A DNA stretch of 33,804 bases from a virus: IMG/VR virus record IMGVR_UViG_3300017724_000030, positions 1-33,804 of that record; one strand, written 5' to 3'. Made by a program: the position numbers and the translations under genes. Below are positions 4,234 to 32,958 of this stretch, piece after piece; positions within the stretch are counted from its first letter, which is position 1; the number at the start of each line of letters is the position of its first letter. The notes under the pieces are model-generated. The model made no database searches. It had not been told where the DNA came from and saw only the letters and a list, made by a program, of their open reading frames with translations.

Positions 4234-7200
4234 ATGGCTGCTTATATAGATCAATTTTCTGCAGAATCTTTACTGGTTATTAAAAAACCACCGGTAGCAG
4301 CACCTGTTATTGTTCCGTTTAAAGCAGTTAGTGAAAATAATTTTTTAGAAGATAGGTTTGTATGCTTTGCTTATAGATACCAATACGAAAACGGTGAATA
4401 CTCAGCAACCTCTCAGTTTAGTAATGCTGCATTTACAGCAAAACCTTTTAAGTTTAGCGTTGACAGTTATCTTAATGAAGGAATGATTAATGCATCTAAT
4501 GCTGTCACAATTACTTTTAATTCTGGAGGCTCTCTTGTAAAAGGAATAGAGTTGTTATTTAAAGAGTTTAATGACCCTACAATAAAAGTTATAGAAAATT
4601 TAAATAAATTAAACTTAGGGATAGGTAATAATGAATTAACAACGTATACGTTTGATAATCAAAAAATATTTACTGTACTACCAGAGTATGAAATATTAAG
4701 GATTTATGATAACGTTCCATTATTAGCAAAGGCCCAGACACTGATGGGCAATAGATTAGTCTATGGTAATTATGTAGAAGGATATAATTTAATTGACCGA
4801 TTTAGCAACCCTATTCGATTAAACTATGAAACCACTCTAAAGTCAAGTTCTATTGATGTTGAAGAGATATCTTCATCTCTAGTTAATGGGGGATTTGATT
4901 TTGGCGGCTACTTAGTTGTTCCAGACTCAGAAGTTTTGTTGGAGATAGACCCTACGCTTTTAGTAGCTGGCTCTTCCATTACTTGGAGTATACAAATAGA
5001 ACATTCTTCTTTTCAAGGTCAAACACCTTTTCCTGCTGAAACAACTACATCTCGAAACTTAAGTTTTACATATGTCCTGCCACAAGCATTTTCATCCGTT
5101 TACGAATTATCACAAAGTACTGATTTTGTTTCAAAAATAGGATCTTCTACTAATATTCAAACAGTGGCTAATTCATGTAATGGCACGACCTTTACTGATA
5201 TATTTAATTGTGCAATACCAAATCAATTAGATGCGTATTTCAAAAAAGAAAGTGGAATATCAGCGGCTGATCAACCCTTTCAAATATTTGCTTCTACGAA
5301 TAATAACTTTTTAGGTATTCAGATTTTAGCAATGCAGTTTGTGGATAATATAAATACCCCTACACAAACTTTCTATGAGTACTATACTATCTTATCTTCT
5401 TCAGTATCTTACTCAAGCTCCTCTAATAATTTTTCTTTACATAGCAATAGAGGATATGAGATCGGCATTGTTTACATGGACGATTTTAATCGATCATCAA
5501 CCGCCCTTGTAAGTCCTGATAATACTGTTCATGCATCATGTGCAGATTCTGTAACAAAAAATACTATTCAAGTTACAATACCAGGAGGGTTAACAACTCC
5601 CCCTCAAATAGCGCCTTTTTGGGCGACAAGGTATAAGTTTGTTATTAAGCCAGATAAAACAACTTATGAAACTATATATACAAATGTATATTTTGAGGAT
5701 CCCGATACCTTCGCAGCATATTTTTTATTAGAAGGAGAAAATGCAAATAAAGTTCAAGCGGGCGATAGACTTATAGTTAAAGTCGATACAGTTGGACCAA
5801 CAAACACATGTACATTTACCACTGTTTTAGAGAAGGAAAATAAAGCATCTCAGTTTCTTGAGATAGATAATCCTTTAGATCCTACGGGAAATAAAGTAGC
5901 AGTTCCATCTGGAACATACATGAAGTTAAATCCAAACAATTTTTCAATTCAAAACAGTGAGGAAGTTGGAGGTAACTTTATCTCATATCCTTCAATAGTT
6001 GCGATCAGTGGAAATAGTAATGGTTATCCATGCGCAAATTTTCCCGTAACTGTAAAAAACCCTGTAACCACCGGATCTCCAATTGCTAATGTTGACTATA
6101 CCATTCCAGAAGGAAGTACTATTAGGTTTAATTATACTAATTTTAGGGCTGGAAGCTCAGAGCAAAATCCAAGAATAGATTATAAATATGAAGATGAAAT
6201 AGTAGCGACGGCTTTATATTCTAATTTTAAAGCATTTTTTGAAGGAGAGAATGTGATAGATAGAATTAATTCTGTTGGCGTTTCGTGTAATGGTTGGCCG
6301 CCAAACGAGTGTAATGATCCAGAAAATACTAATATTTATGTTAATACTTTATATGAGCCTTCCCCAGCAGCCGATCCTGTAAACTTTCTAACAGGAACTA
6401 CTAATACACAAATAAGTAGTGCTGAAAACATAAATTACTGGAGATTTGCAAAAAACACCGATACAGGTGAAACCTTTTTAATGGCTACAGGAACAGTAGG
6501 TTCTAGTCCTAGTACTGCAGTAGTTGCACTGCAAATAGAAGTGGTTCGACGTGAAACAAGTATTGTTTTTGAAACTCTACCTCAAGACGCATTACCTGAC
6601 GTATGGTACGAAAATGACAAGTCATTTGCCATTGACAACCAAGGGCAACATTCGGGAGATGTGCAAAACCAAGTTATAAACTTTCAAAATTCTGTTCAGC
6701 CGATTACACCTCAAGATGCAATAGTAGACACTGGTTTTAGTAATTGTATTTCTTTTGGTAATGGGGTTGAAAGTTATAAGATTAGAGACTCTATAACAGG
6801 TAAGGAAATTAATTTTGGAAATCGTGTCAGCACAACCTCATCTCAAGTATACAAAAAAGCTCATAGGTTTGCAGATTTAACTTACAGTGGTGTATTTAAT
6901 GATGAATCCAATGTAAATAAACTTAACGAATTTAACCTTGGTCTGTTAAACTTTAAGCCTTTAGAGGAGTTGTATGGACCTATAGAAAGGTTACATGCTA
7001 GAAGAACTGATATACTTACCTTACAAGAAGACAAAATATCATATGTACTCCAAGGTAAAGACCTACTTACGGATGCTGGAGGAGGCGGAGCTTTAACTTC
7101 CGTGCCGACAGTTTTAGGTCAGCAGATTGCTAGAGATGAAGAGTTTGGTATTAGCAATAACCCTGAAAGTTTTGCTGTTTTTGGATCAGATAAATTTTTT

Positions 7201-8736: not shown

Positions 8737-9867
8737 ATGGCAGTAGGAACATATTTTTTTGATACCGCAACGTTTACGAACGCATCAACTGTATATACAG
8801 ATCAAGGATTAACGCAAATTGCACCTGATGGTTATTATTCTGATGATATAATTGTAAGAGAGCAACTAAGCGGTAAATTACAAGTAGCTGAGACGTGTGA
8901 TTGTGCTACTACACCTGCTCCAACAGCTACGCCTACACCGACAATTACAGCAACACCAGTTCCGACCCCTGCTCCGACTCCATTTCCAACTCCGTCGCCA
9001 GGGCCAACCTCTGCACCAACCCCTTTACCAACACCGCCGCCGCCGACGCCAGCGCCGACGCCAGCGCCGGTTGCCGGGTATTACTATAGATTAGTGCCAT
9101 GTGTGCCTTGTAATATTACAGAGATTAGGTACATGTTCTCTCTAACAGCACTTACTAATAATCAAAGGTATTTAGAAGCACAAACCGGGTGTTATTATAC
9201 TTATACAGATGATGTAAATTACCCTCCTTTAGTTTCAGTTAATTCTAATTTAATTATTAGCCCATCTGAACTCGAGGGTGAAACATTATGTCCTCCAGTG
9301 CCTACAGGTCCTCCAGTAAACAATTACATTATTCGTAAATGTACAACCAATGTAGTCTCTGTATTTTCTACAACTACAAATTATGATCTTTTTACTAGGA
9401 TGGGTGGGGCTTCTGGTACTTATCGAATAACGGGATCTACTACTGATCCTAATTCATTCCCTAATATAACTGGATTACAGTGTGTTGATGATCAAGGCAG
9501 ATTAGAATCAAATTCTAATTTTAGTGGGTGTACAATAAATTGTCCTGACAACCAATCATATTTTACCCTTAGGAGATGTAACGACCCTATAAACGCTAAT
9601 ATAGGATCACTTATAACCATGAATACATCTGATTATTTGGAAGCTAGTCCATTCGGTTATCAAACAGGCGATGTAGTTTACGCGCCTTCTACTGGCAAAT
9701 GTTATACGATAGGACCAGCACAAACAGGAACAGGAGGCGCAGATGTAGTAAATCTAACTGGGTCTAATAAATTACAAAGTTGTTATGAATGTTCTAATTT
9801 TGAAAGTCCTGATTCGGGAATAGAGCAGCCCAATAGCTTTACAGATTTTGACATCCGGCCTTTTTAA
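8737..9867 (+). CDS. Cys-rich tail fibre/adhesin with Pro/Thr linker, 376 aa
   Basis: Residues 1-57 form a small head (TVYTDQGLTQIAPDGYYSDD ... ETCDC). Residues 58-112 are an almost pure Pro/Thr/Ala/Ser linker of the PTPxPT type. The rest shows three imperfect repeats of a small Cys-containing beta module: about 115-190 (YYYRLVPCVPC ... GCYYTY), 196-268 (NYIIRKCTTN ... GCTINC) and 276-355 (YFTLRRCNDP ... GDVVYAPSTGKCYTI ... SCYEC). Paired Cys and the R-x-C pattern recur in each. This layout suits a virion adhesin on a stiff extended stalk. No signal peptide, as expected for a virion protein. It follows the stabilisation protein and precedes a glycosyltransferase. Receptor and exact attachment are unknown. 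Confidence 0.72.
   Translation: MAVGTYFFDTATFTNASTVYTDQGLTQIAPDGYYSDDIIVREQLSGKLQVAETCDCATTPAPTATPTPTITATPVPTPAPTPFPTPSPGPTSAPTPLPTPPPPTPAPTPAPVAGYYYRLVPCVPCNITEIRYMFSLTALTNNQRYLEAQTGCYYTYTDDVNYPPLVSVNSNLIISPSELEGETLCPPVPTGPPVNNYIIRKCTTNVVSVFSTTTNYDLFTRMGGASGTYRITGSTTDPNSFPNITGLQCVDDQGRLESNSNFSGCTINCPDNQSYFTLRRCNDPINANIGSLITMNTSDYLEASPFGYQTGDVVYAPSTGKCYTIGPAQTGTGGADVVNLTGSNKLQSCYECSNFESPDSGIEQPNSFTDFDIRPF
8908..9072 (+). repeat. Degenerate Pro/Thr-coding repeat in the first fibre gene
   Basis: About 165 bases of imperfect CCxACx/GCxCCx repeats encoding the 55-residue Pro/Thr/Ala stalk, noticeably C-rich compared with the AT-rich flanks. The stretch CCAACAGCTACGCCT also occurs in the second fibre gene near 11625. 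Confidence 0.85.
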
Positions 9868-11136: not shown

Positions 11137-12534
11137 ATGGCTGTAGTACAATATTGTGGGCAAAGAATAGAAAATCCAGAAAGAACCGGGGAGAGATATG
11201 AATCGGCGGTTGGGACTTATGTTGTAGGAAATAGAACCTCAATTAATATACCTACAGATTTAGTTTTTAGTGGAACCAATAGACCATATGTAAATGCTAG
11301 GTGGGATTCTGGGGGTCAATACAGTTCACAAAGTACAGGTCAAATAAGTGTAGCAGGAGTTTTGCTAGACGCCAATGGTATTGAGGCTATAAGATTTTAT
11401 CCTGAAAGACCTTTTGGTGCAACCGCCACACAATATAATAATGACGTCACTGAGTATAGTTATACCACTGGAGGAACTTTGCCCGCTGGTAATTATGACA
11501 TCTTAACTTTTGAGATTGATGATCCCACCAATAATTCTTATGGAAGTGGGCAGATATGTATAAGGGGAGAAGAAGCTGCTACGTCCCCGCCTTTACCAAC
11601 AGCTACATTTGTTCCCACCCCTTCACCAACAGCTACGCCTGTACCTACTCCAACAGCTACACCAGAACCCACACCAACACCTTCTCCCACTCCCATACCC
11701 GCCAACCCTGTTCCTGTTCCTCTTTTGCCATTGGGGCCTCAGTATACCTTGACCTATAGCGAAAACTCTAAGGGATGGCCATCTTTTTATTCTTACAATC
11801 CTGACTACATGATTGGGATGAATAATTTCTTTTACACATTTAAGGGTGGGAATTTATATAGACACAACACAAACAACCTAAGAAATAACTTTTACGGAAG
11901 ACAATACAACTCAACAATTACAAGTGTAATAAATGAACTTCCCATCGTAACTAAACTGTTTAAAACAATAAACCTACAATCAGATGAACCTTGGACGGTG
12001 ACATTAAAAACAGATATTCAAGGTGGCGGATTCATAAGCAACGAATGGTTTGAGTTAAAGGAAGGCTCATGGTATGCAGATATTAAAAACACAACACAAG
12101 CCCCTACCGTAATTTCAAATTTTGCATCTAGAGCGATTAATGGCATAGGTCGTGCAAGCGCATTCAGTGGTTTACCATCAGCTAGACAATTTGATTTCTT
12201 ATCAAGCCCAACAATTAATATTGGATCTATACTTAGCGTTGGAGACTTTTTGTATTGCAACAATGAAGTTACTAATACCCCACAATTCGCAGGTAGAGTG
12301 ACACAGGTAAATATAGATTTAACCCAAAACATAAATAATATTATTATTGATGCTACTATTAATGGAGCCGAAGACCCTACGATTGGAAACCCTTACGTAA
12401 TAGGAGTAAAGAATAACACGGCTGAGTCTTATGGTCTTCTCGGACATTTCTGTAGATTTCAAATCGTAAACACGGGACCTTCCCCAACGGAGCTCTTTGC
12501 TGTACAAGCTGAGATCATGAAAAGCTATCCATAA
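11137..12534 (+). CDS. Tail fibre/spike with Pro/Thr linker, 465 aa
   Basis: Residues 1-147 form an N-terminal beta domain (QYCGQRIENPERTGERYESA ...). Residues 149-195 are a Pro/Thr/Ala stalk very like that of the earlier fibre. From about 200 to the end comes a domain starting LTYSENSKGWPSFYSYNPDY, then NNFFYTFKGGNLYRH and ITSVINELPIVTKLFKTINL. I recall this KGWxSF/YTFKxGxxYxH pattern in the distal tail proteins of crAss-like and marine podoviruses, sometimes fused to the stabilisation protein. It is probably a tail fibre or spike component that docks through its C-terminal domain. Its own near-leaderless promoter suggests separate control. The stop is TAA. Confidence 0.75.
   Translation: MAVVQYCGQRIENPERTGERYESAVGTYVVGNRTSINIPTDLVFSGTNRPYVNARWDSGGQYSSQSTGQISVAGVLLDANGIEAIRFYPERPFGATATQYNNDVTEYSYTTGGTLPAGNYDILTFEIDDPTNNSYGSGQICIRGEEAATSPPLPTATFVPTPSPTATPVPTPTATPEPTPTPSPTPIPANPVPVPLLPLGPQYTLTYSENSKGWPSFYSYNPDYMIGMNNFFYTFKGGNLYRHNTNNLRNNFYGRQYNSTITSVINELPIVTKLFKTINLQSDEPWTVTLKTDIQGGGFISNEWFELKEGSWYADIKNTTQAPTVISNFASRAINGIGRASAFSGLPSARQFDFLSSPTINIGSILSVGDFLYCNNEVTNTPQFAGRVTQVNIDLTQNINNIIIDATINGAEDPTIGNPYVIGVKNNTAESYGLLGHFCRFQIVNTGPSPTELFAVQAEIMKSYP
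11581..11721 (+). repeat. Degenerate Pro/Thr-coding repeat in the second fibre gene
   Basis: About 140 bases encoding a PTxTPxP-type stalk, with repeated CCAACAGCTAC units at roughly 11596, 11626 and 11650. It shares the CCAACAGCTACGCCT word with the first fibre's stalk, giving two direct homologous patches about 2.7 kb apart. Confidence 0.82.
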
Positions 12535-23277: not shown

Positions 23278-23517
23278 TTAACCTCTGTATATTTCACATA
23301 TAAATCCTAGATCCTCTAGCTCCTTGAGCCTATACTCTTGTAGTTTCGATACCCTACCTTTTTTTGTTTTGCACTCCACAAATAAGGCAGGCTTACCCGC
23401 GTGCAGGGCCACTAGATCCGGGATTCCATTCTTGTTGGTCTTAATTAGCTTTAAGACGTAGTACCCCAGAGCTTCTAGTTGCTTAATCTTTTTGGCTTGT
23501 ATCTGCTGTTCCGTCAT
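23278..23517 (-). CDS. VRR-NUC domain nuclease, 79 aa
   Basis: A minimal stand-alone VRR-NUC (PF08774) of the PD-(D/E)xK superfamily. Motifs visible: GIPDL (catalytic Asp, residues about 31-35) and FVECKTKKGRVSKLQ (E-x-K, about 46-60), followed by a helix and a final strand CEIYRG. Phage enzymes of this family act as Holliday-junction resolvases or structure-specific nucleases, so a role in resolving recombination or replication intermediates is likely. It starts inside the end of an upstream 49-aa gene (35-base overlap) and sits in an operon with the primase-helicase and SNF2 helicase. Confidence 0.9.
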   Translation of the reverse strand: MTEQQIQAKKIKQLEALGYYVLKLIKTNKNGIPDLVALHAGKPALFVECKTKKGRVSKLQEYRLKELEDLGFICEIYRG

Positions 23518-32227: not shown

Positions 32228-32587
32228 TTAAAGTTCAGCAGTAAAATTACAATAATCATCTTCTGGGTTATCGTCAAAGTAATCCTTAACTTGTTTTCCT
32301 AAACGATAGTCAGCGTACTCAGATAAATCTTCTTCTGTAACATTGTATTGTTTCTGAATCTCACCATTGTAACCCTCGTTTTCATCAAACATTTTGTTTA
32401 CCCTTTCAATCGAACCCTTATCAATTGAATCTAGTTCCTTGACTATATCATCATACTTATCTCTACTGATTTCATAATCAATATAGCTTGGTTCCGCTTC
32501 TTCTGCACCGAATCTTTCATGTGCATTGCTTGACTGTACTGCGAACATAAACTTTCCGTCTACATCGCCATTATAATATCTTCCCAT
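32228..32587 (-). CDS. Conserved small phage protein (MGRYYNGD type), 119 aa
   Basis: It starts MGRYYNGDVDGKFMFAVQSS, a start I recall from hypothetical proteins in Bacteroidetes phages and prophages. The rest is strongly acidic (DYEISRDKYDDIVKELDSID, DYFDDNPEDDYCNF). ATG at 32587 is chosen because ACCAAC lies 6 bases upstream, the sequence MGRYY is the natural start, and the longer frame back to 32650 would be translated through a tRNA-like hairpin. High acidity suggests a DNA-mimic or inhibitor, but that is speculation. It is followed after four bases by the SET-domain gene. Confidence 0.75.
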   Translation of the reverse strand: MGRYYNGDVDGKFMFAVQSSNAHERFGAEEAEPSYIDYEISRDKYDDIVKELDSIDKGSIERVNKMFDENEGYNGEIQKQYNVTEEDLSEYADYRLGKQVKDYFDDNPEDDYCNFTAEL

Positions 32588-32623
32588 TTTAATGTTGGTT
32601 AAATTATTGAGCATTATTACTCG

Positions 32624-32666
32624 TGGATAGGGAGGAATCGAACCTCCCAACGCACCATGCTATCCT
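32624..32666 (-). other. tRNA-like minihelix (acceptor stem plus T-arm, no D-arm or anticodon)
   Basis: Read on the minus strand: GGATAG (32665-32660), a 12-base linker, GGAGG-TTCGATT-CCTCC (32647-32631), then CTATCC (32630-32625). The 5-bp T-stem with G53-C61-type closure and the TTCGATT loop fit a T-arm exactly, and GGATAG/CTATCC gives six acceptor pairs stacked on it. The linker replaces the entire D-arm, anticodon arm and variable loop, so it cannot decode. There is no T-run after it, so it is not an ordinary terminator. It lies in the 80-bp gap between two early genes, starting two bases after the upstream TGA stop. It may be a processed tRNA-like RNA, a tRNA relic, or an attachment-site-like tRNA 3' end. 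Confidence 0.6.
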
Positions 32667-32667
32667 T

Positions 32668-32958
32668 TCATTTTATTTGTTTTATAATGTTTATAACTGC
32701 TTTATATACTTCATCTATGTTGGTAGTAAGCAATGCATCATTTAAACAGAAACTTAAATCATCCCAATTATCATCTTCCATAAGCCTATCAAAACATTTT
32801 TCTACTACCGCCATCAGCCAATCCCATGAGGAGTGATATTTAAGTTCATCAAATGTATTGCCATCTGAATTAAATTTTATGGTCTCTAAGTTGTCATACC
32901 AACCCAAGTTAGTTTGTTGAAACCCCATAAATTCTGCTATAAGTTTATTGTCTTTCAT
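32668..32958 (-). CDS. Conserved small phage protein (KYHSSWDWLM type), 96 aa
   Basis: It contains NKLIAEFMGFQQ near the start, then FDELKYHSSWDWLMAVVEKC at about 36-55 and an acidic helical C-terminal half. I recall the Y-H-S-S-W-D-W-L-M block from hypothetical proteins in phages and prophages of Bacteroidetes; no function is attached to it. No membrane segment. It has the CTTTAAATAAAATG initiation region. Its stop lies two bases before the tRNA-like element, so that element would be co-transcribed with it. Confidence 0.78.
   Translation of the reverse strand: MKDNKLIAEFMGFQQTNLGWYDNLETIKFNSDGNTFDELKYHSSWDWLMAVVEKCFDRLMEDDNWDDLSFCLNDALLTTNIDEVYKAVINIIKQIK

Follow-up and report, generated by a model that had tools for sequence, protein, structure and literature searches.

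An intergenic element of 41 nucleotides (nt) on the minus strand of a viral genome consists of an acceptor stem, a miniature D-arm (mini-D) and a T-arm, with no anticodon arm. From the architecture, covariation, position, orientation and multiplicity observed for the family to which it belongs, and from the exchange of a family member with a full tRNA, we consider it probable that this combination of a minimal tRNA elbow and an acceptor stem punctuates polycistronic viral mRNA, as a viral counterpart of the plant mitochondrial t-elements, and is cut by host RNase P and RNase Z. On balance, and a shade more cautiously, we also favour the broader view that such anticodon-armless mini-tRNAs of ~41 nt, each followed in many lineages by a hairpin, make up a widespread new RNA class that would divide viral operons gene by gene through the host's essential tRNA-processing enzymes, the mRNAs being matured as in mitochondria. 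If so, viruses in two domains would cut long transcripts into single-gene messages with minimal tRNA mimics, a strategy known mainly from organelles, and the elements would offer minimal RNase P and RNase Z substrates that are natural and covary. They would also explain many unannotated 80-100 nt gaps in viral genomes, which a covariance model could annotate.

The window analysed here is the whole stretch of 33,804 nt (IMG/VR record IMGVR_UViG_3300017724_000030, positions 1 to 33,804). Read directly, its minus strand from 32665 to 32624 is GGATA-GCA-TGG-TGC-GTT-GGGAGG-TTCGATT-CCTCCC-TATCC-A, of which 32665-32625 is the 41-nt core. The 5' strand of the acceptor stem, GGATA (32661-32665), which the G at 32660 can lengthen to make a stem of 6 bp, is paired in all relatives, with U.G and G.U variants in two of them (L008, L009), and is followed by the mini-D-arm GCA-TGG-TGC (32652-32660) and by a linker, GTT (32649-32651), in place of the whole anticodon arm of a tRNA. 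The T-arm comprises the 5' strand GGGAGG (32643-32648), identified from sequence and covariation, the loop TTCGATT (32636-32642) and the 3' strand CCTCCC (32630-32635); the acceptor 3' strand TATCC (32625-32629) and a discriminator-like A (32624) complete the element, and CCA is not encoded. The GG of the mini-D would take the part of G18 G19 and could contribute to the tRNA elbow. For the core, minimum-energy folding gives the predicted structure (-14.2 kcal/mol); folding energy is not counted as evidence because, with flanks included, it is unremarkable (z = -1.33).

On the same strand, the upstream gene (96 amino acids (aa), 32668-32958) ends in a TGA at 32670-32668, and the downstream gene (119 aa, phrog_33624, 32228-32587) starts with an ATG at 32587. 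A sequence-only reading of this DNA had described an 80-nt gap (32588-32667), an element beginning two bases past the TGA, 6+5 stacked acceptor and T pairs (equally readable as 5+6), a TTCGATT T-loop and no T-run after the element, all of which is borne out. Its statement that there is no D-arm was mistaken: the 12-nt linker that it saw holds a three-pair hairpin with a UGG loop, easily overlooked in one sequence and revealed by L002 and L004, where a double change from C-G to U-A turns GCA-TGG-TGC into GTA-TGG-TAC. The rest of the gap is a short trailer and an A/T-rich leader, the trailer including a weak hairpin with one U.G pair, GAGT-AATAAT-GCTC (32609-32622), at the site where relatives have covarying hairpins.

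Existing annotation tools pass the element by. ARAGORN reports no tRNA or tmRNA in the window, finds no tag-coding region or tmRNA at the element and calls none of the mini-elements in the loci scanned; Rfam at gathering thresholds gives nothing in the window nor for mini-elements in the loci scanned; the tRNA model RF00005 has no match at E <= 0.001 across the window's whole record; and BLAST of the element or its region against phage records returns nothing, or merely tRNA T-arms. The Rfam hit RF04354 (Plastid-ycf2) was rejected at 22.2 bits against a threshold of 65.7, and lies on the opposite strand. A functional tRNA, of which the acceptor stem, D-loop GG, T-arm with TTCRA and G53-C61 are all present, fails on the anticodon arm and on the RF00005 threshold, and an intrinsic terminator fails on direct reading, with no T-run after the hairpin.

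Searched for exact matches to the final 20 bases of the core, IMG/VR yielded six other contigs, all carrying the complete element, and a degenerate pattern raised the contigs with this element to eleven. Among them, T-stem double changes occur in L007 and L011, and the U.G and G.U pairs of L008 and L009 fit the minus strand, not the plus strand. When a covariance model built from these relatives (R1) was applied to their complete records, most of the records yielded additional elements of very different sequence, each lying in an intergenic gap, with acceptors such as GGGATG/CATCCC, GAGTCA/TGACTC and GACTAG/TTAGTC; mini-D pairs across elements include GCU/AGC, AU/AU, AA/UU, GA/UC and CA/UG. 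The total stands at 155 distinct elements in 2.44 Mb of fetched viral DNA, a figure that gives no density estimate because many loci were fetched as matches. A strict descriptor matched 62 times across the 1.28 Mb of viral loci fetched, and five Markov shuffles gave no match. No specific tRNA parent was seen for the elements, among which longer forms with an arm are occasional.

The clean evidence for structure comes from two tests in which the acceptor was left unselected, and it is these that carry weight. A pattern with ATTGGAT in place of the mini-D ignored the acceptor, whose pairing was then scored: an acceptor of at least 5 bp flush with both arms was present in 22 of the 93 unique matches listed versus 2 of 372 offset controls, the distribution of pairing being bimodal among the matches listed. 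The other roughly three quarters of those unique matches listed, mostly tRNA variable regions or chance, were removed by the acceptor test. A second acceptor-blind pattern, ATGGTTGYA, gave an acceptor of at least 5 bp in 70/90 matches versus 1/360 in the control; together with the shuffles, these tests rule out a chance palindrome. Pattern matches in L041 and L042 proved to be degenerate tRNAs within tRNA clusters rather than mini-elements, and those in Microbacterium phages Mercedes and Juicer are not clear elements.

Covariation was scored in a gapless alignment of eighteen elements which, being gapless and of equal-length members, cannot itself favour the structure. All 252 of 252 cells pair, a percentage inflated because the members were chosen as paired, with double-sided changes at 13 of 14 pairs (83 cells) and a pairing score of 0.935 versus 0.212 for shuffled and at most 0.161 for slid partners. 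By this alignment, every stem of the family covaries and the structure is under selection.

What stays fixed is the tRNA elbow. TTCGA occurs in 155/155 distinct elements, having also been fixed in most of the search patterns that yielded them, and G53-C61 in 155/155; the mini-D triloop is UGG in 146 of the 155, CGG in six and AGG in three; the acceptor and T stems stack to 11-13 bp in 151; and the linker at the place of the anticodon arm, the absence of which from the window element the sequence-only reading had rightly noted, is 2-5 nt in all but one. GG and TTC were required by the descriptor and the linker was capped at 6 nt; not every other regularity was a requirement. Among the 155, the discriminator and the sequence of the acceptor are free to vary, and there is no anticodon, so recognition and charging by a single aminoacyl-tRNA synthetase, and decoding, appear unlikely. 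What is retained is what RNase P reads, namely the T-loop and elbow and a distance of about 12 bp to the cut (the 12-bp distance rule), with G19, G53, A58 and G71 as sensitive positions (PMC11143913). The 11-13 bp stack fits this rule and the acceptor plus T-arm model substrates of the enzyme.

The elements lie in the sense direction, just past a stop codon and ahead of a start. Of 149 elements, 80 have an upstream open reading frame (ORF) of 50 aa or more whose stop codon ends between -10 and +9 relative to the start of the element, versus 34 of 691 displaced control positions, and the next start commonly follows 14-90 nt downstream of the element. A trailer hairpin of at least four Watson-Crick bp follows 30 of 56 elements versus 12.2 +/- 2.9 in shuffled sequence, that of the window falling under this threshold because of its wobble pair, and the trailer hairpins differ in sequence (TGACAA/TTGTCA, TGCAA/TTGCA, ACGTGGA/TCCACGT, TCCGGC/GCCGGA). 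Such a covarying hairpin recurs directly 3' of the element (32609-32623 in the window, and in relatives) and would start the downstream message if the element were excised. In L119, L131, L241 and L261, CCCCC immediately precedes elements with the acceptor GAACTGC/GCAGTTC at several junctions.

Homologous junctions exchange their elements. In L004, L005 and L065 a gene 75-80% identical is followed in each by an element of differing sequence and the same design, and ahead of a 92-aa gene shared at 60% identity, L004 has a mini-element where L065 has a full tRNA-Arg(TCT); in L004, a full tRNA-Arg shares its trailer with mini-elements. Such exchange is what would be expected if any tRNA-like fold sufficed at the junction. 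The sequence-only reading had held that non-conserved stems in related phages, or a full-length tRNA gene at the same locus pointing to a simple recent deletion, would tell against its proposal. The stems are conserved, and a full tRNA was indeed found, but it alternates with a mini-element before the same gene, which supports interchange over decay. As for the window's own downstream gene, three relatives have an element in front of it and three others have none, with another gene directly upstream, so the element is not essential at that junction.

The sequence-only reading's first suggestion, an RNA processing signal in a polycistronic mRNA, is now well supported on comparative grounds. Once transcribed, an element would fold into its 11-13 bp acceptor/T stack with a contact between the D-loop GG and the T-loop; host RNase P would cut on its 5' side, just past the upstream stop codon, and the 3' cut, by RNase Z or another activity that matures tRNA 3' ends, would fall after the discriminator. 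In this way the operon would be split into separate mRNAs, the downstream 5' end often starting with a small hairpin, and neighbouring genes could gain separate stability or expression. The anticodon arm would be dispensable, since the element's RNA would never be used in translation. The cutting, the enzymes involved and the benefit to the virus are what we infer from this arrangement.

A real difficulty for this reading is that, of the 102 elements whose upstream ORF is clear, about 18 (10 of them clearly, at +6 to +8) have the stop codon ending inside the element, so that a cut before position 1 would strip the upstream mRNA of its stop; in the window the stop lies upstream and would be kept after cutting. 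In plant mitochondria, mRNAs lacking a stop codon have reportedly been found near t-elements, and translating ribosomes would unfold the element. L001, L002 and L008 have a conserved upstream gene of 32-35 aa, beginning MNEHED...G in L001 and L002, whose TAG stop lies inside the element's acceptor strand.

These same features lend themselves to an account without cutting, in which the uncut fold at the stop would act as a structural insulator or translation device, limiting ribosome run-on or promoting termination and re-initiation. Tight placement at stop codons, starts 14-90 nt downstream, and stops inside the acceptor strand, where a terminating ribosome would unfold the element, all suit it. 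A plain hairpin would suffice for such a role, however, and the fixed tRNA elbow (xGG, TTCGA, G53-C61) and the replacement by a full tRNA would go unexplained; we regard this account as unlikely, if the best of the alternatives to punctuation.

Elements occur in uncultured phages and in cultured viruses of bacteria and of archaea, with up to 9-11 per viral record. G012 has eight in 5.6 kb, and G034 (the record of L291) has 11 model matches, the descriptor finding nine in 4 kb there. Model matches, all unannotated, number 11 in mycobacteriophage Fowlmouth, 10 in Indlulamithi and 8 in Cuke. In their annotated operons, the same relaxed descriptor places an element in 29 of 36 gaps of at least 60 nt versus 23 of 496 in-gene windows and in none of 27 shorter gaps, mostly too short to fit one; the elements mostly begin 5-13 nt past the annotated stop. 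These cultured phages (host M. smegmatis mc2 155) would allow a direct test of the punctuation reading. In the haloarchaeal viruses HRTV-27 and HRTV-8, where the elements are likewise unannotated, the order is stop, element, hairpin, start. Some mycobacteriophage gaps contain longer forms in which a hairpin stands where a tRNA has its anticodon arm; compensatory changes distinguish the Fowlmouth version from that of Cuke, and the window element is one instance in a spectrum running from 41-nt minis to such armed forms. At one junction, L357 (Fowlmouth, near 4933-5134) and L359 (Cuke, near 5527-5725) have forms of ~100 nt that combine a mini-D reading AATGGTT with a long arm and encode a terminal ACCA; they resemble the tRNA-like domain of tmRNA without the tag. 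L198 (G027) and L087 carry about eight tRNA-like elements in close succession whose D-loop is larger, for example CCTGGTTTGGGTAAT, at intervals of 70-150 nt that leave little room for coding, unlike the one-per-junction layout. L162, an Aliivibrio metagenome-assembled genome (MAG) contig, has a phage element nearly identical to that of G009 and is probably a phage contig binned there.

Another reading gives the elements a role in trans, with free small RNAs engaging RNase P, EF-Tu, or CCA-adding or modification enzymes as decoys and junctions being merely convenient sites. The elbow and acceptor features that many tRNA enzymes read are retained, copies per genome are many, and the array in G027 is very dense with little coding space; having no anticodon, the elements cannot be aimed at anticodon nucleases. 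One strong copy would nevertheless be enough, and placement one per junction beside stops, with trailer hairpin and start spacing kept, is poorly explained. The decoy that the sequence-only reading had raised therefore keeps some probability, though we rate it as improbable, slightly more so than the insulator.

A cis-acting transcription element (a put-like antiterminator, or a pause or terminator signal) that merely resembles a tRNA would likewise be structured, on the sense strand and repeated along long operons. We consider it highly improbable, since there is no T-run, the design is the same in bacterial and archaeal viruses despite their differing RNA polymerases, and the conserved parts are those of the tRNA elbow. 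The sequence-only reading also proposed a remnant of a lost tRNA gene or an attachment site (attP) at a tRNA 3' end. For the family, both are refuted for practical purposes: although such attP fragments are real, as in halovirus HF2 (PMC8707807), all stems here show compensatory changes, each genome has several different elements that share one architecture but are otherwise unrelated in sequence, these lie between genes in the sense direction, and decay would not keep a covarying mini-D.

The punctuation reading has several precedents. In animal mitochondrial transcripts, intergenic tRNAs mark cutting sites in polycistronic RNA; those are real decoding tRNAs, whereas the viral elements are non-decoding minimal mimics, with a full tRNA merely occasional (L065). 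Among tRNA-like signals for RNA 3'-end formation, mascRNA (MALAT1) and others are folds within longer transcripts that RNase P and RNase Z cleave, but these are eukaryotic, larger and not between operon genes. The tRNA-like domain of tmRNA combines an acceptor and T-arm with a reduced D part, from which the viral elements differ in having no tag reading frame; the longer Fowlmouth and Cuke variants, with their extra arm and ACCA end, are superficially similar. The plant mitochondrial t-elements are tRNA-like structures at mRNA ends at which cuts by RNase P and RNase Z define the termini and which receive CCA tails and are not aminoacylated (PMC11658184). The mini-elements share with them a tRNA-like fold at gene boundaries and would likewise be processed there. 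Each plant genome has few t-elements, eight being annotated in Arabidopsis, and these are for the most part homologues of tRNA genes, whereas the viral elements are ~41 nt long, mostly without an anticodon arm, serial along operons and found in bacterial and archaeal viruses. An acceptor plus T-arm suffices for RNase P in the model substrates AT1 and pMini, and the phage P1/P7 C4 antisense RNA precursor is a known non-tRNA substrate (PMC11143913); unlike the viral elements, AT1 and pMini are synthetic, and C4 is a single regulatory RNA, not operon punctuation.

In the open literature we found no description of such viral elements, and subscription papers or preprints could contain one; comparisons of HF1-like haloviruses mention tRNA-like sequences needing further study, one of them read as attP (PMC8707807). 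As an RNA family the elements appear to be new, the principle of t-elements and tRNA punctuation being already known.

The replication protein of the window is nearest to that of MW202828 (58.6%), with relatives also in Flavobacterium, Polaribacter, Cellulophaga and Maribacter phages, so that a Bacteroidota host appears likely for its virus. Among relatives found through this protein, a second model (R2) had no match in the full records of MW202828, elemoF, Leef_1 and phi46:1, and R2 matches in Maribacter phage Panino were ordinary tRNAs. Elsewhere in the window, the minus strand encodes a small SET-domain protein, unusual in a phage (31933-32277; Pfam PF00856, E 1.3e-7), and a 79-aa VRR_NUC-type nuclease (23278-23517; PF08774), and the plus strand encodes proteins with long repeats of the TPTPTPAPTP type at 8737-9867 and 11137-12534.
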